Of a stretch of 64,000 bases of DNA, positions 2,700-31,353 are shown piece after piece. The position numbers and the translations under genes are program-made. This DNA comes from Rhodothermales bacterium (GTDB lineage Bacteria > Bacteroidota > Rhodothermia > Rhodothermales > UBA10348), in assembly GCA_024711125.1 (NCBI GenBank), contig JANJTM010000017.1:1-64000 (forward strand). Reading direction: 5' to 3'. The number at the start of each line of letters is the position of its first letter. Positions within the stretch are counted from its first letter, which is position 1. The notes beneath the pieces are model-generated. The model had not been told where the DNA came from. It searched no databases and was given only the letters and a program-made list of their open reading frames with translations.

Positions 2700-3212
2700 A
2701 TGCGCGCCTACCCACTCCAGACGATCGGCTTCGCGATCCGCATAGGGATCGCGGCGGCGATCGCGGGCTCGGCGGGAGTGGCCGCTGCGCAGCAAGCCTC
2801 GCACGTCGTAGGTATCGGCATCGGTCCGATCGTCGCGCTGGCCGTCGAGTCCGACGGCTCTCCCCTCGGGCCGGAGGGAGCGCGGACCGACCGTTTCCAC
2901 GTGACCTCCAACCGCGACAGGGCCCGCCTCGTGGCGAGACTCGACCGGGACCTGCCGCCCGGCGTGCGGCTCTTCGTGTCGGCCGAAACCGACCTGGTCG
3001 CCGATCCGGGGGAGCGCAGCGTGAGCTCGGGTCGCGAAACGATACTCGCGACGCGCGTCGCGAGGGGCGTGCGGAAGGCGCAGGTGCTTCGGCTGCGGGT
3101 CGAAGGCAGGGCCGACCAGACCGTCCGACGCACGCTGTCGGTGGGGCTGGTGGATCCGGAAACGGGCCGTGCGTCGTGGCAGGCCGTGCCCGTGGAGATT
3201 CCGGCCAATTGA
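2700..3212 (+). CDS. small exported protein, function unknown
   Basis: A 170-residue protein. An N-terminal signal peptide is clear: positively charged start, hydrophobic stretch to about residue 30, then an AAAQQ cleavage region. The mature part is rich in Val, Arg and Asp with alternating polar/apolar residues, consistent with a small beta-sandwich. I see no cysteines, repeats or catalytic motif. The ATG at 2700 was chosen over an upstream in-frame start at 2625 because only the later one begins directly at the signal peptide. It follows the membrane protein gene by 52 bases. A short stretch with a sigma-28-like promoter separates it from the exopolysaccharide operon, so it is probably the last gene of the upstream unit. 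Confidence 0.65.
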   Translation: MRAYPLQTIGFAIRIGIAAAIAGSAGVAAAQQASHVVGIGIGPIVALAVESDGSPLGPEGARTDRFHVTSNRDRARLVARLDRDLPPGVRLFVSAETDLVADPGERSVSSGRETILATRVARGVRKAQVLRLRVEGRADQTVRRTLSVGLVDPETGRASWQAVPVEIPAN

Positions 3213-3276
3213 GACCGCCGCTCCGGGCCCGTGTCCCGGAATGAGACTGGCCCGGTTTTCGAGGACCGGCCGAGGG

Positions 3277-3303
3277 TTAAGCACCCCGAAAAACGGGGCG
3301 ATA
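3277..3303 (+). promoter_or_regulatory. sigma-28-like promoter of the exopolysaccharide operon
   Basis: TTAA at 3277-3280 is followed after 19 bases by GATA at 3300-3303 (context GGCGATACT). The spacing equals TAAN-N15-GCCGATA, the layout of FliA/SigD promoters. It ends 25 bases before the GTG of the first operon gene. A CCCCG-AAAAA-CGGGG inverted repeat lies between the two boxes. The same element recurs at 31407, 32472, 34447 and 36273. Confidence 0.6.
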
Positions 3304-3328
3304 CTGAACCCATATCGGCGCTCCTTCC

Positions 3329-4366
3329 GTGAATCCCAGTTACAGCCCTCATTCGGTCGTTCTCGGCGGCTCCGGCTTCGTCGGCTCGCATCTCTGTGAT
3401 CGTCTGCTCGAGGCGGGTCACCGCGTGACCTGCGTGGACAGCCTGCTTACCGGCCGCCGCTCGAACGTGGCCCACCTGGACGGGCGATCCGACTTCCGGT
3501 TCGTCGAGCAGGACATCTGCTCGCCGATCGCCGTCGACGGTCCCGTGGAGACCGTATTCCACCTCGCGAGCCCGGCGTCCCCGAAGGATTACTACACGTA
3601 CCCGCTCGAGACGCTGGCCACCGGCTCGACGGGTACCCGCAACGCGCTCGAGCTGGCCCGTCGCCACGGGGCGCGCTTCCTCCTCGCCTCGACGAGCGAA
3701 GTGTACGGAGACCCGGAGATCCATCCGCAGCAGGAGGACTACTGGGGCCGTGTCAACCCGATCGGACCGCGTTCGGTCTACGACGAGGCGAAGCGGTTCT
3801 CCGAGGCGATCACCGCGGCGTACCGGCGCGAGCTGGACGTCGATACGGTGATCGTGCGCATCTTCAATACGTACGGGCCCCGCATGCGCGCGGCCGACGG
3901 GCGCGCGCTTCCCGCGTTCGTCTCGCAGGCATTTGCCGGCGAGCCGGTAACCGTGCACGGCGACGGGCTGCAGACCCGCTCGTTCTGTTTCGTCAGCGAC
4001 CTCGTCGACGGGCTCTTCCGCGCGGCGATGTCGGGCGAGGCCGGGCCGATCAACCTGGGCAATCCCGAGGAGATCACCATAGGCGAGTTCGCGCAGGAGG
4101 TCATCGACTGTATCGGGAGCCCGAGCGAGCTGGTCTTCACGCCGCGGCCGGTGGACGATCCCACGGTTCGGCGCCCGGACATCACGCGAGCCCGGACGTT
4201 GCTGGGCTGGGAGCCCCGCGTGCCGCGAAAGGACGGCCTGAAGCGCACCATCGACTACTTCGCCGTGGAACTGGGATTCGAGTCGGCCCAACGCCGGGTG
4301 ACCGACCGCGCGTCCCGCCGCCGTAGCGCCCCGGCCGCCCGTTCGGCCGTAACCGTTCCTTCATGA
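3329..4366 (+). CDS. UDP-glucuronate decarboxylase-like NAD-dependent epimerase
   Basis: A 345-residue extended short-chain dehydrogenase. The NAD-binding GGSGFVGSHL lies at residues 13-22, the SDR catalytic pair is in YDEAK (about residues 151-155), and the family signatures HLASPASPKDYY, TSEVYGDP, NTYGPRM and TRSFCFVSDLVDGL match UDP-glucuronic acid decarboxylase (UXS), which makes UDP-xylose from UDP-glucuronate. A related nucleotide-sugar epimerase/dehydratase is possible. The Arg/Ser-rich C-terminal tail after about residue 315 is longer than usual. The start is GTG at 3329; no ATG gives a complete Rossmann motif. It is the first gene of the exopolysaccharide operon, directly downstream of the sigma-28-like promoter, and overlaps the next gene by ATGA. 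It would supply a precursor sugar in the cytoplasm. Confidence 0.88.
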   Translation: MNPSYSPHSVVLGGSGFVGSHLCDRLLEAGHRVTCVDSLLTGRRSNVAHLDGRSDFRFVEQDICSPIAVDGPVETVFHLASPASPKDYYTYPLETLATGSTGTRNALELARRHGARFLLASTSEVYGDPEIHPQQEDYWGRVNPIGPRSVYDEAKRFSEAITAAYRRELDVDTVIVRIFNTYGPRMRAADGRALPAFVSQAFAGEPVTVHGDGLQTRSFCFVSDLVDGLFRAAMSGEAGPINLGNPEEITIGEFAQEVIDCIGSPSELVFTPRPVDDPTVRRPDITRARTLLGWEPRVPRKDGLKRTIDYFAVELGFESAQRRVTDRASRRRSAPAARSAVTVPS

Positions 4367-6837
4367 CCGAAGACCGCCGTCATACGGAACCGGTACGCTG
4401 GACCGCCGAGCGGTCCGCGGTCGCCCCCGAGAGCCCCACGGGCTCCCGGGGCGCGCTCGTGTTGCCCGCCGACGACGGTTCGACGAGACTCATGCAGGGC
4501 GTGGAGCCCGCGGGGCTGCGCGCCGCGCAGCTGGCCGCGGCGCGCGCTTCGTGGGCCGAGTCGCTCTACCCGCAGGAGCCGCGGATCGAGCCCCGTGCGC
4601 GCGTTTCGCGACTGGCGACGCTGATCCGTCGGGGCCGTGTGGCCGGAGCGCTGGCGGCGATCGGCGTGTGGGCCGCCGTCGCGGCCTGGCTCGCATTCGT
4701 TCCGCCTTCGTACGAATCGTCGGCCACCCTGCTCGTCGATACGCGACGGCTGGCCGAGATCTCGTCCCGGTACGGCTCCGACACCGAGGCGCTCGGCGCC
4801 TTCGGCGGCGGCAAACTCGCCAACCAGGCCGAGATCGTGCGCATAGCGCCCGTGATCGCCGACACGACGGCCACCCGCCTGCTCGCGTCGGTCACCGCGG
4901 CCGAGCGCGGCTTCATCCCGGTGCCGGCTGAAACCCCGTCGGTCACCGAATTCGTGGCGCTCTGGCTCAAGAAATCGGCCGTCGAAGTCGTGGCCAAGGC
5001 ATCGGACGACGAGGCCGACATGATCGAGATCCACGCCGAAGCGGGTTCCGCCGAACTGGCCGCGAGGATCGCCGATACCTACGCCCGCACCTACGTCGAA
5101 CTGATCGCGCGCGGCGTACGGGACCAGCGCGAGCGCGCGCTGGCGTTCCACCAGGACCGGGTTACCGAGGTCGAAGGCGAACTCGCGGGCATCGACGAGC
5201 GCCTGAGCGACTTCTACAGGGACGCCGGAACGCTCGCCGTATCGACCGAAGCCGAGGTCGCGGGCCGGCACGTCTCGGAACTGCGTTCGGTGCTCGACGA
5301 GGCCCAGATCGCCTGGTCCACGCACTCGGCGACCCTCGAGGGGCTCGAGGCCGAACTCGCGCAGCTCAACCCGGACGCGCTCTCGGCACGGGTCGCCTCG
5401 AGCGCCGACGCCGAGATCCGCTCGACGCAGACGTACATCGCCGACCTCGAGCTGCGCATCGGGGCCTACTACACCCGCACGCCGTCCCTGCGCGAGGATC
5501 CGTCGCCCTCCCCCGACCTCGTCCACTACCTGAATGAGCTTTCGACGTCGCGCGCGCGCCTCGACGAACTGTCCCGGCAGCTCGTGAGCGACGTCATGAC
5601 CACGGGCGGAATCGACCTGTCGCAGGAAACGGGCGGACGCTCGTACCTGCTCCAGCTTCGCCAGCGCATCGCGGGCGAACGCGTGGCCCTCGCCGCGGCC
5701 GAAGCGAAGCGGGATGCCGTGCGACGCCGGTTGGGCGCGTTCGAATCGTCCCGGCAACGGTATTCGCAGCAGGCGATACCCTTCGCCCAGCTGCAGCGGG
5801 ACCGCCAGGTCGCCGAGCAGCGCTACGTTTCGGCCCTCCAGGGCCTGACGGCCCTGCAGTTGGACGACCCCGGCGAGACGGTGCGTCTCCTGGCCCATGC
5901 CGAGGTGCCGCGCGAGCCCGCCGGACCGGAACCGCTGTTCCTGGTGCTGTTCGGGGCGTTCGTCGGCCTCCTGGTAGGCGGCGGAGTCGCGTACGGACGG
6001 TCCCGTCTCGACGACCGCATCTACGGACCGGAGGAAGTGGAACCGGAAGGCCTGGCGGTGGACGGGGTTCTCCCGGACGTCACGCCGCTGGTGCGCCGCA
6101 CGTTCCGCGGCGCCACGCACGCGCAGCTCGCCGGACGCCCGGTGGACGTGCATGTGGTCACGGTCACTTCGGCCCATACTCCCGAAGCCGCGCTCCTGCG
6201 CAAGTTCGCGACCCGCCTCGCCGCCACGTCGGCCCGCGGTTCGGTCTTCCTCTTCACGAGCGCCGAGGCCGGGGCGGGCAAGTCGCTCACGGCGGCCAGC
6301 ACGGCTACGGCCCTCGCGCTGGCGGGCTTCCGCACGCTGCTGGTGGACGCGGATACGTACCGGACGGCACAGCGCGGCCTCGTCGGGTTTTCGGACGGAA
6401 GCCTGTTCGACGTCGAAGCCGGGGCCTTTCCGACCGGGGGTGGACTCGAATCCCGCGGCGGTGCCCTGCGACTGCTCTACGGCATCACGTTGTACTCCAC
6501 CCGTCCCGTGGCGACGGAGCACCTGGCGGTGCACCAGCTGGGCCGCCTCATCGCTTTCTACCGTTCGCACTTCGACTATCTCGTCGTGGATACCCCGCCC
6601 GTGATGGCCACGGCATTCACGCTGGCGGCCGGCTCGCTGGCCGATCGCCGGTTCCTCGTCGCCGCCAGCGGTTCGACCCGGCTCGGGCTTCTGCGGCAGG
6701 CGCGCGGCGAAATGGCCGCGGCCGGCGCGCCCGTGTCGGGGGTGATCGTCAACCGCTTTGATGCCGGGTCCTCGCCGGCCTATCGCTCGACCTACCAGGA
6801 AATCCGGGGCTATTACGGAATTCCGGGCGCGCCATGA
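4363..6837 (+). CDS. Wzc-like polysaccharide co-polymerase / BY-kinase
   Basis: An 824-residue inner-membrane protein with the Wzc layout. After a cytoplasmic N-terminal tail, TM1 is at about residues 90-110, followed by a Wzz-type periplasmic domain with long coiled-coil helices, TM2 at about 525-545, and a C-terminal cytoplasmic P-loop tyrosine-kinase domain. Walker A is SAEAGAGKSLT (about residue 631), Walker A' is LLVDADTYR and Walker B is LVVDTPP. The extreme C-terminus carries several tyrosines (YRSTYQEIRGYYG), as expected of an autophosphorylation cluster. Such proteins set chain length and control export of capsule or exopolysaccharide together with the outer-membrane channel Wza, which is not in this window. 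Both ends overlap their neighbours by ATGA. Assignment is firm; kinase activity is inferred from motifs. Confidence 0.9.
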   Translation: MTEDRRHTEPVRWTAERSAVAPESPTGSRGALVLPADDGSTRLMQGVEPAGLRAAQLAAARASWAESLYPQEPRIEPRARVSRLATLIRRGRVAGALAAIGVWAAVAAWLAFVPPSYESSATLLVDTRRLAEISSRYGSDTEALGAFGGGKLANQAEIVRIAPVIADTTATRLLASVTAAERGFIPVPAETPSVTEFVALWLKKSAVEVVAKASDDEADMIEIHAEAGSAELAARIADTYARTYVELIARGVRDQRERALAFHQDRVTEVEGELAGIDERLSDFYRDAGTLAVSTEAEVAGRHVSELRSVLDEAQIAWSTHSATLEGLEAELAQLNPDALSARVASSADAEIRSTQTYIADLELRIGAYYTRTPSLREDPSPSPDLVHYLNELSTSRARLDELSRQLVSDVMTTGGIDLSQETGGRSYLLQLRQRIAGERVALAAAEAKRDAVRRRLGAFESSRQRYSQQAIPFAQLQRDRQVAEQRYVSALQGLTALQLDDPGETVRLLAHAEVPREPAGPEPLFLVLFGAFVGLLVGGGVAYGRSRLDDRIYGPEEVEPEGLAVDGVLPDVTPLVRRTFRGATHAQLAGRPVDVHVVTVTSAHTPEAALLRKFATRLAATSARGSVFLFTSAEAGAGKSLTAASTATALALAGFRTLLVDADTYRTAQRGLVGFSDGSLFDVEAGAFPTGGGLESRGGALRLLYGITLYSTRPVATEHLAVHQLGRLIAFYRSHFDYLVVDTPPVMATAFTLAAGSLADRRFLVAASGSTRLGLLRQARGEMAAAGAPVSGVIVNRFDAGSSPAYRSTYQEIRGYYGIPGAP

Positions 6838-8891
6838 AGCGGTTCCTGCATTGGGACGAGATGCGTCGTCCCGTGACTACCCTGGCGGACCAGGGCGTGG
6901 TCAGCGTGGCGAACTTCGTCACGGTGCTCCTGTATGCGCGCACCCTCGATCCCGGCGAATTCGGGCTGGTGGCGCTGCTCCTGACCATCCTGCTCGCGGT
7001 GACCGCCGTCCAGACGGCGATCGTGGGCCAGGTGCACAACCTGCTCGGGGCGCGGCGTGAGGGGGAACCGCTCGCCTCGCTCACCGGGCACCTGCTCCTG
7101 GTCCAGGGCGTCTTTCTCGCGGCGGTGACCCTGCCGGCGCTCGCGATCGGAAGCGCCCTCTGGACGCTCGGCGGTTGGGGAGCGGCCCGATTCACGGTGG
7201 AAACCGCGATCCTGCTCGCGCCGTGGCTGTTCCAGGACACCGTGCGACGCTTCCTGTACACGAAGCGGATCATGGGCGCCGTGTTGCTGAACGACGGCGT
7301 GACCTACGGGCTGCAGATCGCGGGAGCGATCGCTCTCGCGGCCGGACTGCTGCCGCGCACGTTCGACGCGGCCCAGGGAATCTACTTCGCCGGGTCCCTG
7401 GCGGGATCCGTCCTGGGCGCGGTTCAACTGTACCGGATCGGATTCCGCGTGGAGCGATCCAGCCTGCGCGACGATCTCCGGTCGGCCTGGGGCATCGCGC
7501 GGTACCTGGCCGGCGGGGAGATCCTCGCCATCGTCGGGCGGAACGCGACGAGCTGGATGCTGGCCGGAACCCTCGGGCTTCCCGCACTCGGGGCATACCG
7601 TGCGGTATCCCATTTCGCGAACGCGCTCAATCCGATCAGCATCGCCACGGGCCTCTACCTGCCCGCGCTGGCGTCCTCGCGGTGGAGTCCGGAGCGAGCC
7701 GACGAGTACCGCGGATGGTTCCTCCGGCTGACGGCCCGCCTCGTGGCCGGATTGGGGCTATTCGTGCTCCTGCTGGGCCTGGCCGCCGAGCCGCTCGTCG
7801 CGCTGGCGTACGGGCCGCGGTACAACGCCTTCCCGGTCGTGCTGGTGCTCGAGATCACGCTGGCCGCACGGCTGCTCATGTTCCTGCACGACACGCTGTT
7901 CCACGGCATCGTAGGGGCGGGGGCCGACCGGTCGCTGCTCGTGGATCGCGTGATCCAGCTCGTGGTGCTGGCCGTCGCGGGATTTCCGCTCGTGACCGGA
8001 TGGGGCGTGGTGGGCGCGGCCACGTGGCACCTGTTGTCGGCCGTGGTGGTCTCGACCTATGCGGCGTGGTCCTTCGCGAAGCTGGGTCGGGGTACGCGTC
8101 CCGTAACCGTGTCGGATCCGGACGTGCTGGGCTTCGGTGCCGAGGGAATCGTGCTCGCCGACCCCGGGGGACTGACGGTGCGCAAACGCTTCACGCACCC
8201 GGAGCGGGGACCCGGCAGGGCCCGCCGGGAATTCGGAATCCTCCAGCGTCTCGCGGCCGCGTCCGATCGGGCTCCGGTCGGCGTACGTGCCCCGCGGCCC
8301 GTGGCATTCCTCGCCGGCGAACACACCGTGGTGATGGAACGCTGCCCCGGGACGCCGCTCGACGAGTACCTGAACACCCGCAGGCCGAAACCGGAGGCGG
8401 TACGGCGCATCGCGGAACGCCTGGACGCGGGCATCACCCACGTCGTCGAGACCCTCGGCGAGCCGTACCACGATTTCTGCCCGCAGAACGTGTTGTGGGA
8501 CGAGGGGGCGGGTTCCGTAACCGTGCTGGACCTCGGAAACGACCGCATCACGACGGACGAAGGCCTGCCCGACGAACCGTTCACGGTCAGCATGGGCTGC
8601 TTCCTCGGGACGACCGTCTACACGGCGGCGCGACCCGGTCGCGTCGGCCGCTGGGGCGACGTACACCGCAACGCACAGCTCTTCCGCGCGATCGTGGGGT
8701 CGCTGCGCGCCCGCGGCCACCGCATGCCGACCCGCGACCTGCTGCGCATGGCCTGGAGCCGGTACCTCGAAATGGGCCTGAACGGCTCGTGGACCCGGTG
8801 GGCATGGTATCTGACCGTGGGCCTCGTCGTGGCGAGTGTCGCCGTCGCCTGGTCGGCGCGTCCTCCGTTTTCGAAGAGGGTCCCGGAATGA
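6834..8891 (+). CDS. Wzx-type flippase fused to a kinase-like domain
   Basis: A 685-residue fusion. Residues 1 to about 420 are a polytopic polysaccharide flippase (MATE/MOP-like, about 12 TM segments) that would move lipid-linked repeat units across the inner membrane. From about residue 430 to 650 a soluble protein-kinase-like fold follows: a glycine-containing start (GFGAEGIV), a lysine in TVRKRF, a catalytic-loop motif HDFCPQNVLW near residue 546 and a metal-binding VLDLGND near 563. This resembles aminoglycoside-phosphotransferase or Kdo/lipopolysaccharide-kinase families, and the residues needed for phosphotransfer appear present. A last hydrophobic segment (WAWYLTVGLVVASVAVAW) closes the protein. 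The fused kinase is unusual for a flippase and may phosphorylate a sugar in the repeat unit; that is inference. The start overlaps the previous stop (ATGA). Confidence 0.82.
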   Translation: MKRFLHWDEMRRPVTTLADQGVVSVANFVTVLLYARTLDPGEFGLVALLLTILLAVTAVQTAIVGQVHNLLGARREGEPLASLTGHLLLVQGVFLAAVTLPALAIGSALWTLGGWGAARFTVETAILLAPWLFQDTVRRFLYTKRIMGAVLLNDGVTYGLQIAGAIALAAGLLPRTFDAAQGIYFAGSLAGSVLGAVQLYRIGFRVERSSLRDDLRSAWGIARYLAGGEILAIVGRNATSWMLAGTLGLPALGAYRAVSHFANALNPISIATGLYLPALASSRWSPERADEYRGWFLRLTARLVAGLGLFVLLLGLAAEPLVALAYGPRYNAFPVVLVLEITLAARLLMFLHDTLFHGIVGAGADRSLLVDRVIQLVVLAVAGFPLVTGWGVVGAATWHLLSAVVVSTYAAWSFAKLGRGTRPVTVSDPDVLGFGAEGIVLADPGGLTVRKRFTHPERGPGRARREFGILQRLAAASDRAPVGVRAPRPVAFLAGEHTVVMERCPGTPLDEYLNTRRPKPEAVRRIAERLDAGITHVVETLGEPYHDFCPQNVLWDEGAGSVTVLDLGNDRITTDEGLPDEPFTVSMGCFLGTTVYTAARPGRVGRWGDVHRNAQLFRAIVGSLRARGHRMPTRDLLRMAWSRYLEMGLNGSWTRWAWYLTVGLVVASVAVAWSARPPFSKRVPE

Positions 8892-11398
8892 ACCCGCTCC
8901 AGCCCGTCTCGAGCCCTCGTGGCGCCGCCGCACCGGATTTGCAGCGCGATCTCGCCGAACGGAGGATCCGCGCCCGGGTGGTGCGGGCACGGGCCGACGA
9001 ACTGGACGTGCTGGTCCACTCGCAGGACAGGGAGCGTTTCGAGGCCCTGCTGCGGAGCCGGGGTTTCCTGGCCGTTCCCGCGCCCGCCGAAGCCGGTCGG
9101 ACGGCCGACCGCGACCGGCGATTCCACGTTCGGGACGGACTCGTCGTCGAGTCGATGTCGGTATGGGCGTTTGATCCGGCCGGCGGACACGCGTACCGCT
9201 GGATCGTACCGGGTCTGTCGGAAGCGATCCTCGATACGGCTCCGGGGCGCGGGGGACCCTTCTCCGAGGCACCGCTCTGCCTGGCTCACGTGCTGCACGA
9301 AGCGATCAACCGCGGCGCCCGGCGCTCCGACCGGCTTCGCTCGGCGCTCGTCGCACTGGCCGCGGCCGATCCTGGGGGCGAGGCCGTGAGCCGGTTTCTC
9401 GGCCAGGCTGCCGCCGACGCGGTGCGCAAGGCGCGCGCAGAGTCGCTCGGCACCGGGCCGGTGGACGCCGTATCCCTCGTGCGCGATCTCTGCAGGGCCA
9501 CCCGGAGAGCTTCCCTGGGACAGCCCGTGCAGCACGCCGTGCGCCGCATGCACGATCTGTGGGACCGGGCGTGGCACCGCCGCCTCGGGCGTCGCCAATG
9601 GGCGATTTCCATTCTCGGTCCCGACGGCGTGGGCAAGACGACGGTGGCGAATCTCGTGGCATCGGGCGAGCCTCCTCCGCGGACCGCGTGGAGCTACCGG
9701 TACAACGGTCGCCCGAAGGGGTCGGGAGGGCATCGCGTGGCGCGGAGGGTCGTCAAGAGCCTGTGGTATGCCTGGGAACGGCGGGCGGTCGGACGATCCG
9801 TACCGTCGGATGACGTGATCCGGCTTGCCGAAATCAGGATGCGACGTCTCGAGTGCCTGGCGGCCGCCCTCGTCCGGCGACTCTCGGGCAACCAGCTCCT
9901 GGACATCCTGCTCCAGGATCGGGGAACGATCGACGAAGCCGCCGATCTCCGGACGGATCGCGCCCGCGCCCGGGCCCGCCGGCTGATACGGAGGGCGCTG
10001 CCCGGCAGCGAAAGCTGCTCGATCCTGCTCGTCGACGAGCCGGAGGCCATCCATGCCCGGAAGGACGAGAAGAGCGTCGGGGAGATCGCTTCGACCGTAC
10101 GGCGGCTGCGCCGCGCGATGGCCGAACTGCTGCCGCCGGAAAACACGGTCGAGATCGACATCCGCGGTCTGACGGCCGTCCAGGTGGCCCGAAGCGTCGA
10201 AGTGTCGATCCGGTTCCGCTTGGACCGGGAATCGGGCCGCGTCTCGCCGGTCCCCTCCCGGGACGACGACGAGCCCGAACTGCGGTTCTTCGTGGTCGGG
10301 TTCCCGGGTCCGGGCGCTCCCGTGAGCGACGGCGTACACCGCGCCGTCGCCGGAGTGGCCGGAGCCCTCGCCCGGGACGGCCGGCGGGTGGTGATCGTCG
10401 GCCAGGGAGGCGAGTCCTCCCGGTACCGCCGGGACGGTTACGACGTGGTCACCTTCCGGGGTTCGACGCGACTGGGCCTGTCGCGGGAGCTGGTCCGCTG
10501 GTTTGCCGCTCGCAGCGGCCCCGGGCTCACGGTCCTGAACGGAGCCTTCAGTCCGCTCGTCGTCGCGCTCTCGCGCCGCCTCGTTCGGCGCGGTCAGCCC
10601 TACGTGCACGCACCGCACGACCCGTACAACGACGCGGTCTTCGCGTCGTCCCCCTGGAAGAAACGCGCCTGGTGGCTTTTCGCCGAGCGGCGCCTGCTTC
10701 GCGAGGCCGCGGCGATCCAGGTCCTGGACCCGCGCCACGGTGCCCTGCTGAGGCATCTCGGCGTCGAGACCCCGTGGTACGCGTTTCCGAACGGATTCCG
10801 GATCGAGGATCTCGACGAAGATCATGCCCCGCCGCCGCCCCACGACGGCCCGGCCCGCCTGTTCTTCCTCGGGCGCATGGACGCCCACAACAAGGGGCTC
10901 GACCTGCTCCTGCGCGCGGTCTGCCAGGTGCCCGACACGACGCTGACGCTGCAGGGGCCCGACTGGGGTGACGCCGGGACCCTTCGCGACCTGTGCGCCG
11001 AACTGGGCATGACCCACAGGGTGCGCATCCTGGCACCCGCCTACGACCGGACCCCCGGCTCGCTGATCGCCGAACACGACATCTTCTGTCTCCCGTCCCG
11101 TTTCGAAGGCTTCGGGCTTGCCGCGCTGGAGGCGATGATCGCCGAGCGTCCGGTGCTCATCAGCGACGTCGGCGGTCTGGCGCCCGGAATCGAGGCGGCG
11201 GGATGCGGGCGCGTGGTGGAGCCGACGGTCGAGTCCATCCTCGAGGGATTGCGTGACCTGCTGGCCCGTCGGGGAGAATGGCAGCGCATGGGCGCCGTCG
11301 GGCGCTCGTGGGCGATCGAGCACCTTACCTGGGAACGGGTGGCGGCCGATACCTGGGAAGCGTACGAACCCCTCTTCCGTCCGGCCCGGCGTCCATGA
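8888..11398 (+). CDS. three-domain fusion: nucleotidyltransferase-like, thymidylate-kinase-like P-loop, GT4 glycosyltransferase
   Basis: An 836-residue protein. The N-terminal 200 residues look like a nucleotidyltransferase fold (ADELDVLVHSQDRERFEALL, then GF). A P-loop ILGPDGVGKTTVANL near residue 240 opens a thymidylate-kinase-like domain with a LVDEPEAIHARK segment downstream. From about residue 465 a GT-B fold of family GT4 begins: RFFVVGFPGPGAPVSDGVH, the LFFLGRMDAHNKGLDLLL acceptor/donor core, and the EX7E-like region FCLPSRFEGFGLAALEAM. The GT4 part most likely adds a sugar to the repeat unit. The role of the two N-terminal domains is unknown, but the pair also occurs as a stand-alone protein in polysaccharide clusters. 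The ATG at 8888 overlaps the upstream stop and sets the start. Confidence 0.78.
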   Translation: MNPLQPVSSPRGAAAPDLQRDLAERRIRARVVRARADELDVLVHSQDRERFEALLRSRGFLAVPAPAEAGRTADRDRRFHVRDGLVVESMSVWAFDPAGGHAYRWIVPGLSEAILDTAPGRGGPFSEAPLCLAHVLHEAINRGARRSDRLRSALVALAAADPGGEAVSRFLGQAAADAVRKARAESLGTGPVDAVSLVRDLCRATRRASLGQPVQHAVRRMHDLWDRAWHRRLGRRQWAISILGPDGVGKTTVANLVASGEPPPRTAWSYRYNGRPKGSGGHRVARRVVKSLWYAWERRAVGRSVPSDDVIRLAEIRMRRLECLAAALVRRLSGNQLLDILLQDRGTIDEAADLRTDRARARARRLIRRALPGSESCSILLVDEPEAIHARKDEKSVGEIASTVRRLRRAMAELLPPENTVEIDIRGLTAVQVARSVEVSIRFRLDRESGRVSPVPSRDDDEPELRFFVVGFPGPGAPVSDGVHRAVAGVAGALARDGRRVVIVGQGGESSRYRRDGYDVVTFRGSTRLGLSRELVRWFAARSGPGLTVLNGAFSPLVVALSRRLVRRGQPYVHAPHDPYNDAVFASSPWKKRAWWLFAERRLLREAAAIQVLDPRHGALLRHLGVETPWYAFPNGFRIEDLDEDHAPPPPHDGPARLFFLGRMDAHNKGLDLLLRAVCQVPDTTLTLQGPDWGDAGTLRDLCAELGMTHRVRILAPAYDRTPGSLIAEHDIFCLPSRFEGFGLAALEAMIAERPVLISDVGGLAPGIEAAGCGRVVEPTVESILEGLRDLLARRGEWQRMGAVGRSWAIEHLTWERVAADTWEAYEPLFRPARRP

Positions 11399-12786
11399 TC
11401 CCGGCTCTCGTGCATACCGAACGCCGTGCGGCCGACCGCTGGGCCCTCGCCCTGCTGTCGGTCGTGCTCGCAGGGTACGCCTTCATGGGGCGCGGATTCG
11501 CGTACCTGGGCCTTCCGCCGCTCTTCATCGGCGAGATCACGCTCGCCGTATGCCTGGTGGCGGCCCTCTCGGCCGGCCGCTTCTTCGACGTCTTCCGGGG
11601 CATCACGCCCAAGCTGCTGCTCGCGTTCATCGTCCTCGGTGCCGTCCGGACGGCATTCGACGTGCCGACCTGGGGGGTGGACGCGCTGCGCGACGCGGTG
11701 ATCTGGGGGTACGGCCTGTTCGCTTTCGCGGTCGGCGCGATGCTGCTTCGCGATCCCGAGCGACTGCGGCTCTTCTTCGGGCGTTACCGGAGGTTCATCG
11801 TCGGTTTCCTGCTCGTGGCCGGACTGCTGTACCTGGTTTCGCGAGGCCGGGAAGCCGCGCTTCCGCGCATGCCGGGGACCGACATGCCGATCGTCGAGGC
11901 CAAGGGCGGCGACATGATGGTGCATCTCGCCGGGATCACGGCCTTCCTGATGGTCGGTCTCGGGCGGTGGCGGTGGTGGCTCTTCCTCGCGCTGGGCGCC
12001 AACCTGGCGCTGCTCGCGGTGACGAACCGGGGCGGCATGGTGGCCTACGTGCTGGCGTGCGGGCTCGTGCTCGTGCTGCGATCGCGCCGCGTTCGGATCG
12101 CCATGGCCGCCTACGCGGGCGTCCTCATCGTATCGGCGTTCGTGCTGATCGATCCGCGCATCCCGCTGCCGAGCGGACGCGAGGTCTCGGTCGAACAGTT
12201 CACCGAGAACTTCCGCTCGGTGGCCGGCGGGTCCGACAAGTCGGCGCTGAACAATACGAAGAAGTGGCGTCTCGACTGGTGGTCGAAGATCGTGCGCTAC
12301 ACGTTCGCCGGGCCGTATTTCCTGGCCGGCAAGGGATTCGGCGTCAACCTGGCCGACGACGACGGATTCCAGGTGGTGAAGGGATCGGCGCTCCGGAGTC
12401 CGCACAACGGGCACCTGACGATCCTTGCCCGCATGGGAGTACCCGGCTTCCTGCTCTGGCTGGCTCTCCTGGGCGCATGGTTTCTCGGGAACCTCCGCTG
12501 CCTCTTCCGGGCCCGCGGTCGGGGCGAGGAGGCCTGGCAGGGCATTTTTCTCTTCCTGCTCGCGTACGCAACCGCGTTCCTCGTGAACGCCTCGTTCGAC
12601 GTGTATCTCGAGGGTCCGATGGGCGGAATCTGGTTCTGGACCGTGTTCGGCGTCGGCCTCGCGGCCCCGCGGATCTATGCCCGGTTCGAGCGCCCGGTCC
12701 CGGTGCCGGCCCCGGTCGTCGCACCGACGGCCCCGCCGTTCTCCGTTCGGGTCGGCGCTCCGGCCCCCATTCCGACGATCGCATGA
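11395..12786 (+). CDS. O-antigen polymerase/ligase-like membrane protein (Wzy/WaaL family)
   Basis: A 463-residue protein with about ten to twelve membrane helices and one long periplasmic loop between about residues 255 and 345. After that loop comes the signature SPHNGHLTILARMGVPGF, which matches the Wzy_C/O-antigen-ligase motif (HN, then a following helix with GxPG). Such enzymes polymerise or transfer undecaprenyl-linked glycans in the periplasm. Its place between the flippase/GT genes and a WecG-like transferase fits a Wzy-dependent exopolysaccharide pathway. The C-terminus is a Pro/Ala/Val-rich tail. Both ends overlap neighbouring genes (ATGA). Polymerase versus ligase cannot be decided from sequence. 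Confidence 0.82.
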   Translation: MIPALVHTERRAADRWALALLSVVLAGYAFMGRGFAYLGLPPLFIGEITLAVCLVAALSAGRFFDVFRGITPKLLLAFIVLGAVRTAFDVPTWGVDALRDAVIWGYGLFAFAVGAMLLRDPERLRLFFGRYRRFIVGFLLVAGLLYLVSRGREAALPRMPGTDMPIVEAKGGDMMVHLAGITAFLMVGLGRWRWWLFLALGANLALLAVTNRGGMVAYVLACGLVLVLRSRRVRIAMAAYAGVLIVSAFVLIDPRIPLPSGREVSVEQFTENFRSVAGGSDKSALNNTKKWRLDWWSKIVRYTFAGPYFLAGKGFGVNLADDDGFQVVKGSALRSPHNGHLTILARMGVPGFLLWLALLGAWFLGNLRCLFRARGRGEEAWQGIFLFLLAYATAFLVNASFDVYLEGPMGGIWFWTVFGVGLAAPRIYARFERPVPVPAPVVAPTAPPFSVRVGAPAPIPTIA

Positions 12787-13691
12787 CGACCGATCCCGTT
12801 CCCCGAATCGCCGGAATGCGCGTCGACCCGACGACCTACCGGGATGCCGTGGACGTCGTGCTCACCGCGGCTCGCAGCCGGCAGTCGGCCTACGTCTGTG
12901 TCGCGAACGTGCACATGGTGATGGAGGCGCACGACGACCCGGGGTTCCGCGCCCTCGTCGACCGCGCCCTTCTCGTCACGCCCGACGGGCAGCCGTTGGT
13001 GTGGGCCACCCGGCTGCTCGGACGCGGCCCGGTGGAACGGGTCTACGGCCCCACGCTGACGCTGCACGTCTGCGAAGCCGCCGCGGCGGCGGGTGTGCCG
13101 ATCGCCCTCTATGGCGGCACGGACGACAGCCTCGACGCGTTCTCCCGCTTCCTGGAGACCCGGTATCCTTCGCTGCGCATTGCCTGCCGCATCGCGCCGC
13201 CGTTCCGCCCGCTGACGCCCGGGGAGGACTCCCGGTACACGCGGCTCCTGGCTGAATCCGGAGCCGGCATCGTGCTGGTCGGCATCGGGTGTCCGCGCCA
13301 GGAGCGCTGGATGGCCGATCACGAGGGCCGCATCCCGGCCGTCATGCTCGGCGTCGGGGCGGCGTTCGACTTCCATTCCGGGCGTGTGCGCCAGGCGCCG
13401 CCCCTCCTCCAGCGCCTCGGGCTCGAATGGGCCTTCCGCCTCGCGATGGAGCCGCGGCGGCTCTGGAGGCGCTACGCGAAACACAACCCGCGCTTCGCCG
13501 GCCTGTTCGCCGCGCAGCTCCTCTCGCATGTCCTCGGGCTCGACGCGCGGGATGCCCGGGGCACCCGCCCCGCGCGCCCCGTACACCGGCGCACGACCGC
13601 CGCCGCCCGCGTTCGGCACCGCGGCTTGCGCACCATCTCCGGGGCGCCGGAACGCACGGAGTCCCCCGAAAACCTCGAAACCCGCTCCTGA
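12783..13691 (+). CDS. WecG/TagA/CpsF-family glycosyltransferase (GT26)
   Basis: A 302-residue cytoplasmic or peripheral-membrane protein. Family marks: the N-terminal NVHMVMEAHDDPGFRALVDR with the following LVTPDGQPLVWATRLLG, the central YGGTDDSLDAFSRFL, and the hallmark VGIGCPRQERWMADH, then GVGAAFDFHSGRVRQAP and RLAMEPRRLWRRY. GT26 enzymes add ManNAc, ManNAcA or glucose to lipid-linked intermediates. The protein is longer than the usual 240-260 residues because of an Arg-rich C-terminal extension after about residue 250. The ATG overlaps the upstream stop. Within this operon it probably adds the second or a later sugar. The family call is firm; donor sugar unknown. Confidence 0.88.
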   Translation: MTTDPVPRIAGMRVDPTTYRDAVDVVLTAARSRQSAYVCVANVHMVMEAHDDPGFRALVDRALLVTPDGQPLVWATRLLGRGPVERVYGPTLTLHVCEAAAAAGVPIALYGGTDDSLDAFSRFLETRYPSLRIACRIAPPFRPLTPGEDSRYTRLLAESGAGIVLVGIGCPRQERWMADHEGRIPAVMLGVGAAFDFHSGRVRQAPPLLQRLGLEWAFRLAMEPRRLWRRYAKHNPRFAGLFAAQLLSHVLGLDARDARGTRPARPVHRRTTAAARVRHRGLRTISGAPERTESPENLETRS

Positions 13692-13694
13692 CCG

Positions 13695-15035
13695 ATGCCC
13701 CGTCCCCGTCGCGCCGATCGGCGCCGCGTACTGCTCGTCGCGTTCGCCTACGCCCCCGGCGCCGGTTCCGAACCGGGTCTCGGCTACAACATGGCGACGG
13801 CCCTCGCCCGCCGGTACGACGTCACCGTGCTGACCGACCAGGCGTGGCCGGGAACGCCCCCGGATCCCGGGCCCGGGGAGGACCTGCCCCGCGTGATCCG
13901 GCTCGCGCCGGCCGCATGGCCCCGAGCCGTCGATCCCCGCGCGTCGCAGCGCCGATGGGAGCTGTACTACTACACCTGGATGCGCTCGCTGGCGCGCCGA
14001 CTGCCCGCGATCGTGGAGTCGACGGGTGCCGAACTCGTGCAGCACGTGACCTACGGGCGGTACTGGATGCCCTCTGCGGCCGATACGGCCGGCCGACCCT
14101 TCGTGTGGGGCCCGGTCGGAGGCGGCGAATCGGCCTCTCCCGAACTGCTGCGTTCGTCGCTCGCGGCGGTGCGGTACCCGGAGTATTTCCGCATCGCCGT
14201 TCGCGCGGCGTTCGAGCGGGACCCCGCGCTGGCCCGGACGGGGCGCGCGGCCGACCTCGCGCTCGCCGTCACGCCCGAATCGGCCGAACGCATGCGGCGG
14301 CTGACCGGGGCGCCGGTCGAGATCTACCCGGCGGTCAGCCTGGACGCGGCCGAACTGCGCACGCTCGGTGCGCTGCCGGCCCCTCCGGACGGCCCCGTGC
14401 GATTCCTCGCGCTGGGACGCCTGCTCTTCTGGAAGGGTTTCGACATGGCGATCGACGCTTTCGCCCGCGTCCGCGACCCGCGGGCGTCGTTCTGGATCAT
14501 CGGGGACGGGCCGGAACGGGGTCTTCTCGAGGCCCGTGCGGCGGCGCACGGCCTGGGCGAGCGAATCCGGTTCCTCGGGCGTCTCGACCGGGCCGAAACC
14601 CTCGGCCGGTTCGCCGACGGGCACGTCCTGGTTCACCCGAGCCTGCACGATTCGGGCGGAATGGTATGCCTCGAGGCCATGGCGGCGCGCAGGCCCGTCA
14701 TCTGGCTGGAACAGAACGGACCGGCATTCCTGTGCGGAGGGACGGGCGTCACCGTGCCGATGGTCGAACGCGAACGGACGGTCCGGGGGCTGACCGAAGC
14801 GATGGAGCGGTTCGCCGACGACCGCCCGTGGCTGCGGGAACGGGGCGAGGCCGCCGCCCGTCACGTCGCAGCCCACTACGAGGTCGAAACGCGTACCGAC
14901 CGGCTCGTCGCGTGGTACGAGGCGCTGTGGGAAGAGCGGGCGGGCCGGTCCGCCCGGGAGCGGGAGGCCCTTCGCCCGCCGCGCGCGGCACGCCGTGCCG
15001 ATCGCCGGGTCGGTTCGGCGGGATCCGAAGCCTGA
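13695..15035 (+). CDS. GT4-family glycosyltransferase
   Basis: A 446-residue GT-B enzyme. The N-terminal half shows LLVAFAYAPGAGSEPGLGYN and a conserved FVWGPVGGGE, features of a GT4 subgroup that starts with a glycine-rich donor-side loop. The C-terminal half has FLALGRLLFWKGFDMAIDAF, WIIGDGPERGLLE and HPSLHDSGGMVCLEAMA, which carries the EX7E-like catalytic region. It lacks a signal peptide and would act at the cytoplasmic face of the inner membrane during repeat-unit assembly. The start at 13695 lies three bases after the preceding stop. The C-terminus ends in an Arg/Ala-rich tail, a habit shared by several proteins in this operon. Donor and acceptor are unknown. Confidence 0.85.
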   Translation: MPRPRRADRRRVLLVAFAYAPGAGSEPGLGYNMATALARRYDVTVLTDQAWPGTPPDPGPGEDLPRVIRLAPAAWPRAVDPRASQRRWELYYYTWMRSLARRLPAIVESTGAELVQHVTYGRYWMPSAADTAGRPFVWGPVGGGESASPELLRSSLAAVRYPEYFRIAVRAAFERDPALARTGRAADLALAVTPESAERMRRLTGAPVEIYPAVSLDAAELRTLGALPAPPDGPVRFLALGRLLFWKGFDMAIDAFARVRDPRASFWIIGDGPERGLLEARAAAHGLGERIRFLGRLDRAETLGRFADGHVLVHPSLHDSGGMVCLEAMAARRPVIWLEQNGPAFLCGGTGVTVPMVERERTVRGLTEAMERFADDRPWLRERGEAAARHVAAHYEVETRTDRLVAWYEALWEERAGRSAREREALRPPRAARRADRRVGSAGSEA

Positions 15036-15080
15036 CCCGGGCGTGCGGCCCTTGTGGCCGCTCCCGCCGCCCGCAGACCC

Positions 15081-16262
15081 ATGCGTATCCTTTTCGTCCA
15101 CGCCTACTACCAGCAGCCCGGGGGCGAGGACCGCAGCGTGGACGCAGAGGCCCGGCTGGTCGCCCGGTTCGGGCACGACGTGGAGTGGTTCCGCTTCCGG
15201 AACGAGGCCATGGCCGGTTGGTCGGCGGTTCGCACGGCCACGAGCGTGGTCTGGAACCGCGAGGCGTACCGCGAGGCGCGCTCGATCATCCGGCGATTCC
15301 GCCCCGACGTCGTGCACGTCCAGAATGTCTTTCCGTCGCTTTCGCCGTCGGTCTACTGGGCCGCCGAGGCCGAGGGCGTACCCGTCGTGCAGAAACTCTC
15401 GAACCACCGGCTCTTCTGCGTGAACGGTCTGCTGTATCGCGAGGGCGCGGTGTGTACCGCGTGCCTCGGAAAGCCGGTCGCGTGGCAGGGGGTGCGCCAC
15501 GGGTGTTTCCGATCGAGCCGGGTGATGAGCGCGGGTGTCGCGGCTTCGTTCGCCCTGCAGCGGCTGTTCGGAACCTGGGATCGTCGCATCGCGGCCTGGG
15601 TCGCGCTCGACGAAGACGGCCGCGAGCGCTTCACGGCCGCGGGGCTCGACCCGTCGAAGGTGCACGTGAAGCCCGATTTCGTCGAGGTTCCGCCCGAACC
15701 CGGATCCGGGGACGGGGGCTACGCCCTGTTCGCGGGGCGCCTCTCGCCCGAGAAGGGCGTCGATACGCTGCTCGCGGCGTGGGCCCGACTCGACCGGGAC
15801 GTGCCGCTCCGCGTCGCGGGGGACGGTGAGTTGGCCGGCATCCTGCGCGACGCGGCCGCGGGCGACCGGCGCATCGTGCCGCTGGGTCGCCTGGAACCCG
15901 ATGCGCTGCAGCGGGAAACGGCACGCGCCGCGCTCGTCGTCGTGCCTTCGCGCTCGTTCGAGACCTTCGGACGCACGGCGGCCGAGGCCCTCGTGCTCGG
16001 CACCCCGGTCATCGCCTCCCGCCTCGGGGCGTTGCGCAACGTGGTGACCGACGGCGTGGACGGGGCGCATTTCGAGGCCGGCGATGCCGACGGCCTGGCG
16101 CGGGTCGTACGCTCGTTCTTCGACGACCCGGTCGCGCTGCGGGCGATGCGGGAGCGCGCCCGGGAGCGGGCTGCCCGACGCTATGCGCCGGAGGCGGACC
16201 ACGAAAGGCTCGTCGCCATCTACGAATCGGCCGTGCGGACGGCGGGTCGTGGACGAGCGTAG
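15081..16262 (+). CDS. GT4-family glycosyltransferase with Cys-rich insert
   Basis: A 393-residue GT-B protein: N-terminal MRILFVHAYYQQPGGEDRS, a central DVVHVQNVFPSLSPSVY, then a cysteine-bearing insert (CVNGLLYREGAVCTACLGKP followed by HGCF) that is conserved in one GT4 subgroup and may bind metal. The C-terminal donor domain has ALFAGRLSPEKGVDTLLAAW and VVPSRSFETFGRTAAEAL. The ATG at 15081 was preferred to an upstream GTG at 15054 because it starts directly at the first beta-strand. It is separated by 45 bases from the preceding GT and overlaps the following beta-helix gene by 14 bases. It probably adds a sugar to the lipid-linked repeat unit. Confidence 0.85.
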   Translation: MRILFVHAYYQQPGGEDRSVDAEARLVARFGHDVEWFRFRNEAMAGWSAVRTATSVVWNREAYREARSIIRRFRPDVVHVQNVFPSLSPSVYWAAEAEGVPVVQKLSNHRLFCVNGLLYREGAVCTACLGKPVAWQGVRHGCFRSSRVMSAGVAASFALQRLFGTWDRRIAAWVALDEDGRERFTAAGLDPSKVHVKPDFVEVPPEPGSGDGGYALFAGRLSPEKGVDTLLAAWARLDRDVPLRVAGDGELAGILRDAAAGDRRIVPLGRLEPDALQRETARAALVVVPSRSFETFGRTAAEALVLGTPVIASRLGALRNVVTDGVDGAHFEAGDADGLARVVRSFFDDPVALRAMRERARERAARRYAPEADHERLVAIYESAVRTAGRGRA

Positions 16263-17856
16263 GCGCCCCTTTCGTCGTGGTCGGGTCCCGGCGTGGGCGG
16301 GCGTCGCGGTCCTCCTCGGGACGATCGCGGTGGTCGTCGCCGTGAAGCCGGTCGAGGCGCAGCCGGCGGCCGATCCCTGCGCCGCATGGGCTTCCGGCCG
16401 CGTACCGCCCGGTGGGCGCACGCTCTGGATCGACGGCTCGCACCCGTCGGCCGACGACTCGGGTCCCGCGACGCCGGATCGGCCCTGGTCCACGCCCGCG
16501 CCGCTGCGGCGGCGGGGCACGCTGCGTCCCGGGGACCTCGTCGTCTTCCGCGCCGGAACCTACACGGCGGCGGTCCGGCCGGCCGTCGCGGGAGCGCCCG
16601 ACGCCCCGATCGTATTCGCCGCCTGCCCCGGACAGGAGGTCGTCGTCGACGGTTCGGACGCGCTCGCCACCCGGTGGACCCGTATGGGCGCGTCGTGGGT
16701 CTCGGGCGTCGTGGAGGCCCAGGGCCCGGTCGGCGGCCGCCACGACCGGCACCTGCTCGTCTTCGACGGACGGGTGCTCCGGCCGGCCGGCGACGATGGA
16801 ACTCCCGGACCGGGGACCTTCCGCGTACGGGACCTCGGGCGCGACCGGGTGACGATCGAGCTCGGACTCGACGGAGACGCCGACCCCAATGCGGCCGAGG
16901 TGCGTATCGGTCGTCGCGGCACGCTGTTCGGACCGCCCGAGGCCTCGGAGGGCTGCCCTCGCGATCCGGCGGCCGGGTACTACCGGATCGAGGGGATTCG
17001 ATTCCGCCACGCCGCGAACCCGGCCCAGAAGGGCGCCGTGTGTCTCGGGGGCCGAGCCGTGGAGGCCACGGGAGTGATCGTCGAACGGACGAACGGCCTC
17101 GGGATCGAGATGGTCGGAAGCGGTCACATCCTGCGCCGGTCCGCCTCGAGCGACAACGGGCAGGCCGGTATCGGGGGGCAGTGCGAGGCCTGCCTGCTCG
17201 AGGACGTGCGCAGCGACCGCAACAATTTCCGCGGGCACGACCGCTTCTGGGAAGCCGGGGGCGGAAAGTGGACCGACACGCGCCGCACGGTCTTTCGTCG
17301 TTACGGCGCCTCGGACAACGACGGCGTCGGGCTCTGGTTCGACGGCGACGCCACCGACAACGTGGTCGAGGAGCCGGACATCGACGGGAGCGAAGTGGCC
17401 GCGCTGATGTTCGAACTGGGCAGCGACCGGAACCGCGTCACGGGCGGACGTCTCGCCGGGACCCGGTACCGCGCCTGGTCGGGGTCGGGCGTGCTCCAGC
17501 AGGCGGCGGGCGACAACGAGCTGGACGGAGTGACGATACGGGACAACGAGGGGTCGGGACTGTGGGTGCGGCCTGACGACCGGCGCCCCACCGGCGGCAT
17601 CACCGTGAGGGCCTGTCTGTTCGCGGGCAATGCCGCCGACGGGCGCGACGACGACTTCGAGGTACGCCTGGATGCGGATGTCGCGCGGGGCGAGCGTCCG
17701 CCGGCGTTCGTCTTCGAGGCAAACCGCGTCGTGCCCGCGCGGCCCGGCCTGGCGCTGGGCTACGCATCGTGGCGGGGGGGCGCGCCCCGCGCAGCCGACC
17801 CGGAGGCGGTCTTCGGCAGCGCTGCGGCCCTGCGAACGGACCGCGTACCGGATTGA
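16249..17856 (+). CDS. secreted right-handed beta-helix protein
   Basis: A 535-residue protein starting at a GTG that overlaps the upstream GT gene by 14 bases. An N-terminal signal sequence (Arg-rich start, then AGVAVLLGTIAVVVAVKPVEAQ) indicates export. The mature part begins with TLWIDGSHPSADDSG and RPGDLVVFRAGTY, the usual entry of pectate-lyase-like or NosD-like right-handed parallel beta-helices, followed by many short repeats with Asn/Asp/Gly turns (for example EDVRSDRNNFRGHDRF and DNDGVGLWFDGDATDN). In exopolysaccharide operons such proteins are often lyases, epimerases or chain-release factors. No catalytic residues can be assigned with confidence. It probably acts on the polymer in the periplasm or outside the cell; that is inference from position. 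Confidence 0.75.
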   Translation: MDERRRPFRRGRVPAWAGVAVLLGTIAVVVAVKPVEAQPAADPCAAWASGRVPPGGRTLWIDGSHPSADDSGPATPDRPWSTPAPLRRRGTLRPGDLVVFRAGTYTAAVRPAVAGAPDAPIVFAACPGQEVVVDGSDALATRWTRMGASWVSGVVEAQGPVGGRHDRHLLVFDGRVLRPAGDDGTPGPGTFRVRDLGRDRVTIELGLDGDADPNAAEVRIGRRGTLFGPPEASEGCPRDPAAGYYRIEGIRFRHAANPAQKGAVCLGGRAVEATGVIVERTNGLGIEMVGSGHILRRSASSDNGQAGIGGQCEACLLEDVRSDRNNFRGHDRFWEAGGGKWTDTRRTVFRRYGASDNDGVGLWFDGDATDNVVEEPDIDGSEVAALMFELGSDRNRVTGGRLAGTRYRAWSGSGVLQQAAGDNELDGVTIRDNEGSGLWVRPDDRRPTGGITVRACLFAGNAADGRDDDFEVRLDADVARGERPPAFVFEANRVVPARPGLALGYASWRGGAPRAADPEAVFGSAAALRTDRVPD

Positions 17857-17916
17857 GACGCCGACGGATCGGCACGGAGTTGGCGGAATCGCCGGCACAC
17901 CCGGATCGAACCGCCG

Positions 17917-21949: not shown

Positions 21950-21996
21950 TGTCGGAGGGATCGGTCGGAGACCCGACGTTTGTCGGCCGCGGTGCG

Positions 21997-22004
21997 TACC
22001 TTCG
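21997..22004 (+). promoter_or_regulatory. possible -7 element TACCTTCG before the RsbU-like gene
   Basis: TACCTTCG resembles the Bacteroidota TAnnTTTG -7 box and lies 23 bases before the ATG at 22028. No well-placed -33 TTTG was found (the nearest is at 21979, too close), so support is weak. Confidence 0.25.
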
Positions 22005-22027
22005 CCGGCCCCCAAACGCCTTCCCTC

Positions 22028-26972: not shown

Positions 26973-28124
26973 TCAGGCGCGGCCCTGCCGCACCGAGAAC
27001 CGGTATTCGGTCGGCGTCTGCCCCGTCTCCCGGCGAAAGGCCGTGTGGAACGCCGACTTGCTGGCGAATCCCGCGTCCTCGGCCAGCGCAAGCACGGTCA
27101 GGTGATCCGACGCCGGCTCGGCCAACCGGCGCTTGACCTCCTCGACGCGCCAGCGGTTGACGTATTCGTAGAAGGATCGGCCATGCCCCGAGTTCAGGGC
27201 CTCGGACAGGTGGTGGGTGGGCACCCCCAGCCGCTCGGCGAGAGGAGCGAGTCCCAGGTCCGGCTCCCGGTACGCCCGCTCCTCGCGCATCAGCCGGTCG
27301 AGGGCATCGGCGAGTTCCCGCACACGGTCGGCAGTGAGGCCCGAGCGATCGTATCGAGGGGCGCGCAGCGGTTCTTCCGGTACAGCGGGCAGCTCGTGCT
27401 GTCGCAGGCCGAGCCACCCGATGGCGTAGACGTAGGCGGCCAGCAGGATCGAGACGACGTCAGAGAACCCGGCGAGCGGGTCGTTCGAACCGAGCGCCCG
27501 ACCCGCGATGTACACGACCGTGGATACGAGCCACAGCAACGCCCCGCCGACGAGCATGTGCAGCAGCCACCCGAGCGTGGCGTGCCGGTCCGAGGCAAAC
27601 CGGAGGCGCACGGCTTCACGCTGCCGGCGCGCCACCCGGAGCGCCGCGACGATGTAGACCAGCGAATAGGCCAGCTTGGCCTGGTTCAGGCCGTTGAGCC
27701 ACGGGGTCCAGGCGCTCGCCCCCGGGTCGGCCCGCAAGGCCAGCTTGGCCGCGGAAGGCTGCAGGTAGAACGGCACGAGCGCCGTCGCCACGGCGAGGAA
27801 CGGCAGGAAATGGAGCCATGCACGTTCGGGAAGCCGCTTTCCGCCCAGTTCGACCGAACGCGCGTAGCAGTACACGAGCGGCCCGTAGAGGAACGGGGTC
27901 AGGAAGTCGACCCCCACGAGGTGCGGCGCGCCACGATCAAACCCCGTCGCGTAGACCCACGCCATCGCCAGGTCAAGCGAAAAACCCGCCATGACGGCCG
28001 CCAGGAGACGGTTGGCGGTTCGGTTGGCCCGGGATGAGGCCAGCACGGCCGCGAGGAACAGGCCTTGCGCCGCACCGAGCAGCTGGACGACGGGCAGCCA
28101 GCCCACGGGCAGGAATCCCGTCAT
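26973..28124 (-). CDS. membrane-embedded AraC-family transcriptional regulator
   Basis: A 383-residue protein with about seven N-terminal membrane helices (residues about 8-245) followed by a cytoplasmic AraC-type DNA-binding domain (about 270-383). The second HTH and the family signature are visible in AEDAGFASKSAFHTAFRRET and GQTPTEYR. This 7TM-plus-HTH_18 layout is characteristic of Bacteroidota and relatives, where it likely senses a small periplasmic or membrane ligand. The ATG overlaps the stop of the upstream M28 peptidase gene (ATGA on the minus strand), so peptidase and regulator are translated together. The TonB receptor gene lies immediately downstream and is a plausible target. 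Confidence 0.9.
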   Translation of the reverse strand: MTGFLPVGWLPVVQLLGAAQGLFLAAVLASSRANRTANRLLAAVMAGFSLDLAMAWVYATGFDRGAPHLVGVDFLTPFLYGPLVYCYARSVELGGKRLPERAWLHFLPFLAVATALVPFYLQPSAAKLALRADPGASAWTPWLNGLNQAKLAYSLVYIVAALRVARRQREAVRLRFASDRHATLGWLLHMLVGGALLWLVSTVVYIAGRALGSNDPLAGFSDVVSILLAAYVYAIGWLGLRQHELPAVPEEPLRAPRYDRSGLTADRVRELADALDRLMREERAYREPDLGLAPLAERLGVPTHHLSEALNSGHGRSFYEYVNRWRVEEVKRRLAEPASDHLTVLALAEDAGFASKSAFHTAFRRETGQTPTEYRFSVRQGRA

Positions 28125-31327: not shown

Positions 31328-31353
31328 TATCGGCCGATCGGAGCCGTGCTTGA
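31328..31353 (-). promoter_or_regulatory. weak minus-strand sigma-28-like candidate
   Basis: On the minus strand TCAA (31353-31350) is followed after 18 bases by GATA within GCCGATACCCC (31334-31324). It resembles the plus-strand elements but has TCAA instead of TTAA, and it lies 225 bases from the M1 peptidase start. It could equally be chance within the palindromic CGGCCGATCGG. Confidence 0.25.

Follow-up and report, generated by a model that had tools for sequence, protein, structure and literature searches.

A sigma-28-type promoter element before an exopolysaccharide operon suggests its joint control with type IV pilus genes by a FliA/WhiG factor in a Rhodothermales genome without FlhA

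The window, that is, the whole stretch of DNA analysed here, comprises 64,000 nucleotides of contig JANJTM010000017.1 from a Rhodothermales bacterium (assembly GCA_024711125.1). Close to its start lies an exopolysaccharide (EPS) operon, headed by a short promoter-like element:

3277-3303, plus strand: putative sigma-28-type promoter element TTAAG-N15-GGCGATA of the EPS operon, called from position, enrichment and orthologous loci
3329-4366, plus strand: UDP-glucuronate decarboxylase (UDP-xylose synthase, UXS), operon gene 1, matched by Pfam and by solved UDP-glucuronate decarboxylase chains (E 1e-108)
4363-6837, plus strand: Wzc-like chain-length/tyrosine autokinase, under curated cut-offs, syntenic in G009 and G018
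6834-8891, plus strand: operon gene with weak APH similarity (Pfam search)
8888-11398, plus strand: glycosyltransferase, C-terminal group 1 domain (domain match)
11278-12786, plus strand: Wzy/O-antigen ligase-like polymerase (Pfam search)
12783-13691, plus strand: operon gene, function not assigned, identity 67% in G009 and 57% in G018
13695-15035, plus strand: glycosyltransferase (Pfam search)
15054-16262, plus strand: glycosyltransferase (Pfam search)
16084-17856, plus strand: operon gene, no function assigned; frame as listed, its true start probably after 16262
17917-19437, plus strand: WbaP/EPS-type polyprenyl glycosylphosphotransferase, final operon gene (family match)

The operon call made in the preliminary description is sound: successive plus-strand frames run from 3329 to 19437, either overlapping or no more than about 60 nt apart. 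The element, too, reads as it had been described, with TTAA at 3277-3280, GATA at 3300-3303 and a gap of 19 nt, and it is separated by 25 nt (3304-3328) from the GTG at 3329, the most upstream start of the UXS frame in the list of open reading frames. Sigma-28 promoters have about 15 nt between TAAA and GCCGATAA, a spacing with which the 3277 site, read as TAAG-N15-GGCGATA, agrees; an N14 spacer is found at 36273 and at sites of the related genus g10. The FliA/WhiG promoter consensus, as given in PMC8325347, combines a TAAA-like -35 with a GCCGATAA-like -10. Measured against the classical TAAA / GCCGATAA, the 3277 site (TAAG with GGCGATAC) has three mismatches in total, and against the consensus of the order, TTAAG...GCCGATA, it has one (GGCGATA instead of GCCGATA).

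The window contains five matches to the loose pattern TTAA-N17..21-GATA, every one of them plus-strand (3277, 31407, 32472, 34447 and 36273), against a mean of 0.12 and a maximum of 2 in 100 shuffles of the window; the four sites besides 3277 precede genes of a cluster at 31-42 kb. With up to one mismatch allowed, TTAAG-N14/15-GCCGATA is found seven times against a Markov-null mean of 0.07. One of the seven, a minus-strand site at 34450, overlaps the 34447 site and is regarded as chance, as is a plus-strand site at 11325 with two mismatches. The TCAA variant adds one minus-strand site, at 31328-31353, divergent from that at 31407. Genome-wide (3.79 Mb) the same loose search barely exceeds background, with only 19 matches to the pattern and 12 to its reversed control, so that the window is exceptional in this respect. 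The tighter TTAAG-N14/15-GNCGATA gives seven sites in the genome against none in the control. We take TTAAG, not TAAA, as the clade consensus because the classical TAAA-N14..16-CCGATA is found nowhere in the genome against two control matches.

The cluster downstream of these sites and the divergent genes next to it are laid out as follows:

28121-29500, minus strand: M28 family peptidase (family match)
29505-31103, minus strand: M1 family peptidase, first divergent gene (family match)
31328-31353, minus strand: site TCAAG-N14-GCCGATA before the divergent peptidase genes; G018 likewise has a divergent site
31407-31433, plus strand: site before pilus gene 31465 (pattern match)
31465-31854, plus strand: short pilin-like protein with a hydrophobic stretch near its N terminus, judged by eye
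31851-32441, plus strand: pilus cluster gene, no family assigned
32472-32498, plus strand: site before pilus gene 32559 (pattern match)
32559-34364, plus strand: MGKSAL-type pilin-like protein, no Pfam match
34447-34473, plus strand: site before pilus gene 34589 (pattern match)
34589-36193, plus strand: MGKSAL-type protein, paralogue of the 32559 product
36273-36298, plus strand: site before the PilT-like ATPase gene 36356 (pattern match), conserved at ATPase loci of the order
36356-37801, plus strand: PilT/PilU-like ATPase, 313.5 bits against a cut-off of 319.1
37827-39677, plus strand: pilus cluster gene without a family match, PilM-like only in its position
39703-40731, plus strand: pilus cluster gene without a family match, PilO-like only in its position
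40713-42158, plus strand: secretin (PilQ/MshL-like; family match)

The starts that follow the plus-strand sites (31465, 32559, 34589 and 36356) are all plausible; those at 34589 and 36356 were chosen in our analysis, the list of open reading frames opening both frames farther upstream. Elsewhere in the genome, contig C55 carries two MGQQQLLLL pilin-like genes followed by platform (T2SSF) and PilB-type (T2SSE) genes. Type IV pilus parts are thus present as PilB-type T2SSE and T2SSF on C55, as secretin and PilT-like ATPase in the window, and as pilins by the look of their sequences, and on this sequence basis we assign the 31-42 kb cluster and the C55 locus to a type IV pilus; the matches fall short of the NCBIfam cut-offs, and the pilins were judged by eye. 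Each of the two pilin-like genes on C55 (C55:10338 and C55:10963) has a site of its own, and a classical prepilin leader is by eye absent from both. The same MGQQQLLLL pilin genes also have sites in G002 and G003.

The association of the motif with pilus genes extends through the order. The motif stands at nearly the same place at 24 of 30 pilus ATPase loci, against 0 of 30 for a reversed-motif control; the loci without a site are those of G029, G030, G032, G035 and G036 and one of the two scanned in G031. The named public records most similar to the pilus ATPase of the window are from Rhodothermales and neighbouring Bacteroidota, which places the genome in or near the Rhodothermales. When 80 named ATPase loci were split by record title and rank, a site was found at 24 of 51 in the first group, 5 of which are too short upstream, and at 1 of 29 in the other, whose names are mostly Ignavibacteria or Kryptonia. 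In 511 kb of DNA, mostly pilus loci, T[TC]AA-N17..20-CGATA occurs 74 times against 8 for the reversed pattern. The proposal that matrix production and the pilus-like machine form one regulon gains comparative support on the pilus side, with sites before 31465, 32559, 34589, 36356 and most of their counterparts in relatives.

On the EPS side the comparison is narrower. Matches to UXS at E up to 1e-130 were found in 16 of 114 genomes of the order, and only those of G009 (68%) and G018 (65%) are prominent; the remaining UXS-like genes in relatives, 49-63% identical, lack a comparable site in front of them and were treated as non-orthologous. Most genes of the EPS operon, through to the pilus cluster, are collinear in the window genome, G009 and G018. 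Both orthologues have TCAAG-N14-NNCGATACC before their ATG, TCAAG rather than TTAAG: TCAAG-N14-TCCGATACC in G009 and TCAAG-N14-GACGATACC in G018, 25 and 27 nt before the start, respectively. Across 88 kb comprising the EPS loci and adjoining DNA of these two genomes, T[TC]AAG-N16/17-CGATA has three matches, and two of the three are the UXS sites. Retention of the site at both orthologous loci speaks for the EPS half of the one-regulon proposal, with the reservation that G009 and G018 are not two fully independent cases because they belong to the same genus, g10. Within the same collinear stretch, between EPS operon and pilus cluster, lies a gene for a GAF-SpoIIE phosphatase (21980-23779, 68-70% in G009/G018), a possible regulator of the pilus/EPS programme.

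A first alternative, which we consider unlikely, would accept the pilus sites as true sigma-28 promoters and treat the 3277 element as a chance resemblance, the EPS operon starting elsewhere or using the housekeeping sigma. It can draw on the departure of GGCGATA from GCCGATA, and on the rarity of the gene, UXS being present at orthologue level in only 3 of 41 genomes (the window genome, G009 and G018), which also makes the EPS link lineage-limited and the pilus link broad. However, both orthologous loci have the same position and -35/-10, while spacer and flanks align poorly across the three loci, and no sigma-70-like site was found at 2900-3700. Because the promoter is kept in two genera, a chance match at UXS is very unlikely.

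Which factor would read these sites? In a profile search of the genome, a single protein, encoded on contig C71, exceeded the curated FliA/WhiG cut-off (195.4 bits against 189.6). Among the 41 genomes, the 33 with a FliA/WhiG match (presence called at E up to 1e-40) contain 307 sites against 47 for the reversed control, and the eight without contain 35 against 25. A small excess persists without the sigma: G013, which has neither sigma nor pilus ATPase, has seven sites against none. For G025, the missing sigma is probably due only to the draft state of the genome. FlhA is found in 12 of the 41 genomes. Of the 29 without it, 17 have both sigma and pilus ATPase, five the sigma only (G021 among them with just a weaker paralogue), none the ATPase only and seven neither. 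In five flhA genomes with full listings (G026, G030, G034, G036 and G040), 17 of 45 motif sites are no farther than 50 kb from flhA, against an expectation of about one (hand count), and a fliS gene in G018 is also preceded by a site; in G009, no site was found in 20 kb around the sigma/flhA locus. The single factor over the cut-off, together with the motif near flhA and upstream of fliS in relatives, bears out on comparative grounds the description of the element as sigma-28-like.

A second alternative keeps the motif as real and has it read by another sigma, for instance an ECF factor or the paralogue encoded on C78, which is RpoD-like. The C78 factor, the next sigma in the genome, does score in the FliA model; but it does so below the cut-off and fits RpoD/RpoS models far better, and motif abundance tracks FliA/WhiG presence, with the motif found in flagellar regions of relatives, so that we consider this reading very unlikely. 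Barely credible is a functional inverted repeat in the spacer (CCCCGAAAAACGGGG), serving as terminator of the upstream gene or as repressor operator, which we rejected: its 5-bp stem is perfect and lies within the spacer, but neither orthologous spacer has the repeat, although both loci retain the -35 and -10, there is no T run and no plus-strand terminator was called, and the RNA fold z-score is only -1.2.

The reading of the 3277 element as a FliA/WhiG promoter raises the question of flagella. FlhA is absent from the window genome, which is 99.3% complete, and among the family members sampled it occurs only in the three of g10. In a sigma tree of 27 of 30 loci (L120, L126 and L134 were missed by the extraction motif and left out), the window factor and that of G003 fall beside the flagellar factors of g10, with a node support of 0.687 only. 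The neighbours of the sigma gene are shared between flagellated (G009, G034) and non-flagellated (G000, the window genome, G002, G007, G008) genomes: on the upstream side there is a gene for a small membrane protein, on the downstream side one for a SurA/PpiD-like isomerase, identified in G000 by Pfam. Farther upstream, flagellated genomes have a MinD-type ATPase, FlhG-like by position, and non-flagellated ones a two-component pair or an NtrC-type gene. Such a layout is what one would expect if the flagellar genes were lost and the sigma kept.

The gene for the small membrane protein, of about 110 aa, lies immediately before the FliA/WhiG gene (L001, about 1140-1384, on C71); the protein, with hydrophobic stretches by eye, has no Pfam match, and counterparts are found at L112, L118, L111, L113 and L124, in flagellated and non-flagellated genomes. 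It is a candidate sigma partner or anti-sigma. The FlgM model matched in 0 of 41 genomes, a result that is uninformative because flagellated genomes fail too. A sigma-54 site upstream of the sigma gene was found at 1 of 30 loci by a strict pattern, the start being not found in 3 of the 30 and probably misplaced in 2. Several non-flagellated relatives have a second, weaker FliA-like paralogue of 150-169 bits (G002, G008, G010, G011, G015, G017 and G019). About 3 kb before the sigma gene, after an HD-type gene, a good site at C71:73614 (L021) is followed by no clear protein-coding gene; its transcript, if there is one, may be a small RNA.

Sites elsewhere in the window's genome precede genes for a sigma-54-type response regulator (C78:65203), a GAF/HisKA sensor kinase (C49:111550) and a propeller protein (C44:17810); in G018, too, a propeller protein follows a site. 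Genes for an Ig-like/invasin-domain lipoprotein in two genera (G000 C2:13817, L006, and G002 C13:59543, L274; 61% identical) both have a sigma-28-type site about 30 nt before the start. Judged by their sites, response regulator, sensor kinase, propeller protein and Ig-domain lipoprotein are probable regulon members.

Taken together, these observations make it likely that an ex-flagellar FliA/WhiG sigma would drive type IV pili and the EPS operon together from promoters of the 3277 type. The element at 3277-3303 would be a promoter of the FliA/WhiG (sigma-28) class, with transcription of the EPS operon predicted to start about 7 nt past the -10. The single FliA/WhiG protein encoded on C71 would presumably bind such sites and read not only 3277 but also those of the pilus genes at 31-42 kb and of the divergent peptidases, those of the C55 pilins with the platform and assembly genes, and those of a few surface and signalling genes. 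If one factor reads all of them, matrix and pili would be made together, with surface attachment as the probable output. The C71 sigma itself would be a retained flagellar factor, its locus matching that of flagellated relatives and the flagellar genes gone.

FliA (sigma-28) is the sigma of the flagellar late-gene regulon, with which the system proposed here has in common the promoter class, the sigma family and sites at the flagellar genes of relatives; it differs in that the window genome is without FlhA, of the flagellar export apparatus, and in a regulon made up of pilus and EPS. Control of type IV pili by FliA/WhiG is already known from the WhiG-RsiG system of Rubrobacter radiotolerans (Schumacher et al. 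2021, PMC8325347). According to that paper, the likeness extends to a flagellar-clade sigma, TAAA / GCCGATAA-type promoters and a type IV pilus cluster with several sites inside it, whereas Rubrobacter belongs to another phylum, has DGC/PDE genes as its other highlighted targets and holds its sigma by RsiG with c-di-GMP. The RsiG motif E(X)3S(X)2R(X)3Q(X)3D was not found in the flanks within 1.5 kb of the 30 sigma loci. Actinoplanes missouriensis, as presented in the same paper (PMC8325347), resembles what g10 would have, flagella and type IV pili both under flagellar-type sigmas, but it is a filamentous actinomycete with flagella present, and the setting is zoospore development. What would be new relative to Rubrobacter WhiG is the EPS operon as a target, the phylum and a visible background of flagellum loss. 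Searches of an open-access literature library listed no work on pilus regulation in Rhodothermales/Rhodothermota.

We would give even chances to a wider reading, in which a flagellar sigma of this Rhodothermales family has outlived the flagellum and now commands, as master switch, a sessile surface programme of type IV pili, EPS, the Ig-domain surface lipoprotein and signalling genes of its own; the small membrane protein encoded immediately before the sigma gene would possibly be a new partner that holds it. Flagellated and non-flagellated genera of this kinship have the sigma locus and the pilus promoters in common, and they would amount to a natural experiment on the fate of a flagellar regulator after flagellum loss. 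Matrix and pilus production would be tied to one sigma, with clear predictions for transcript mapping.
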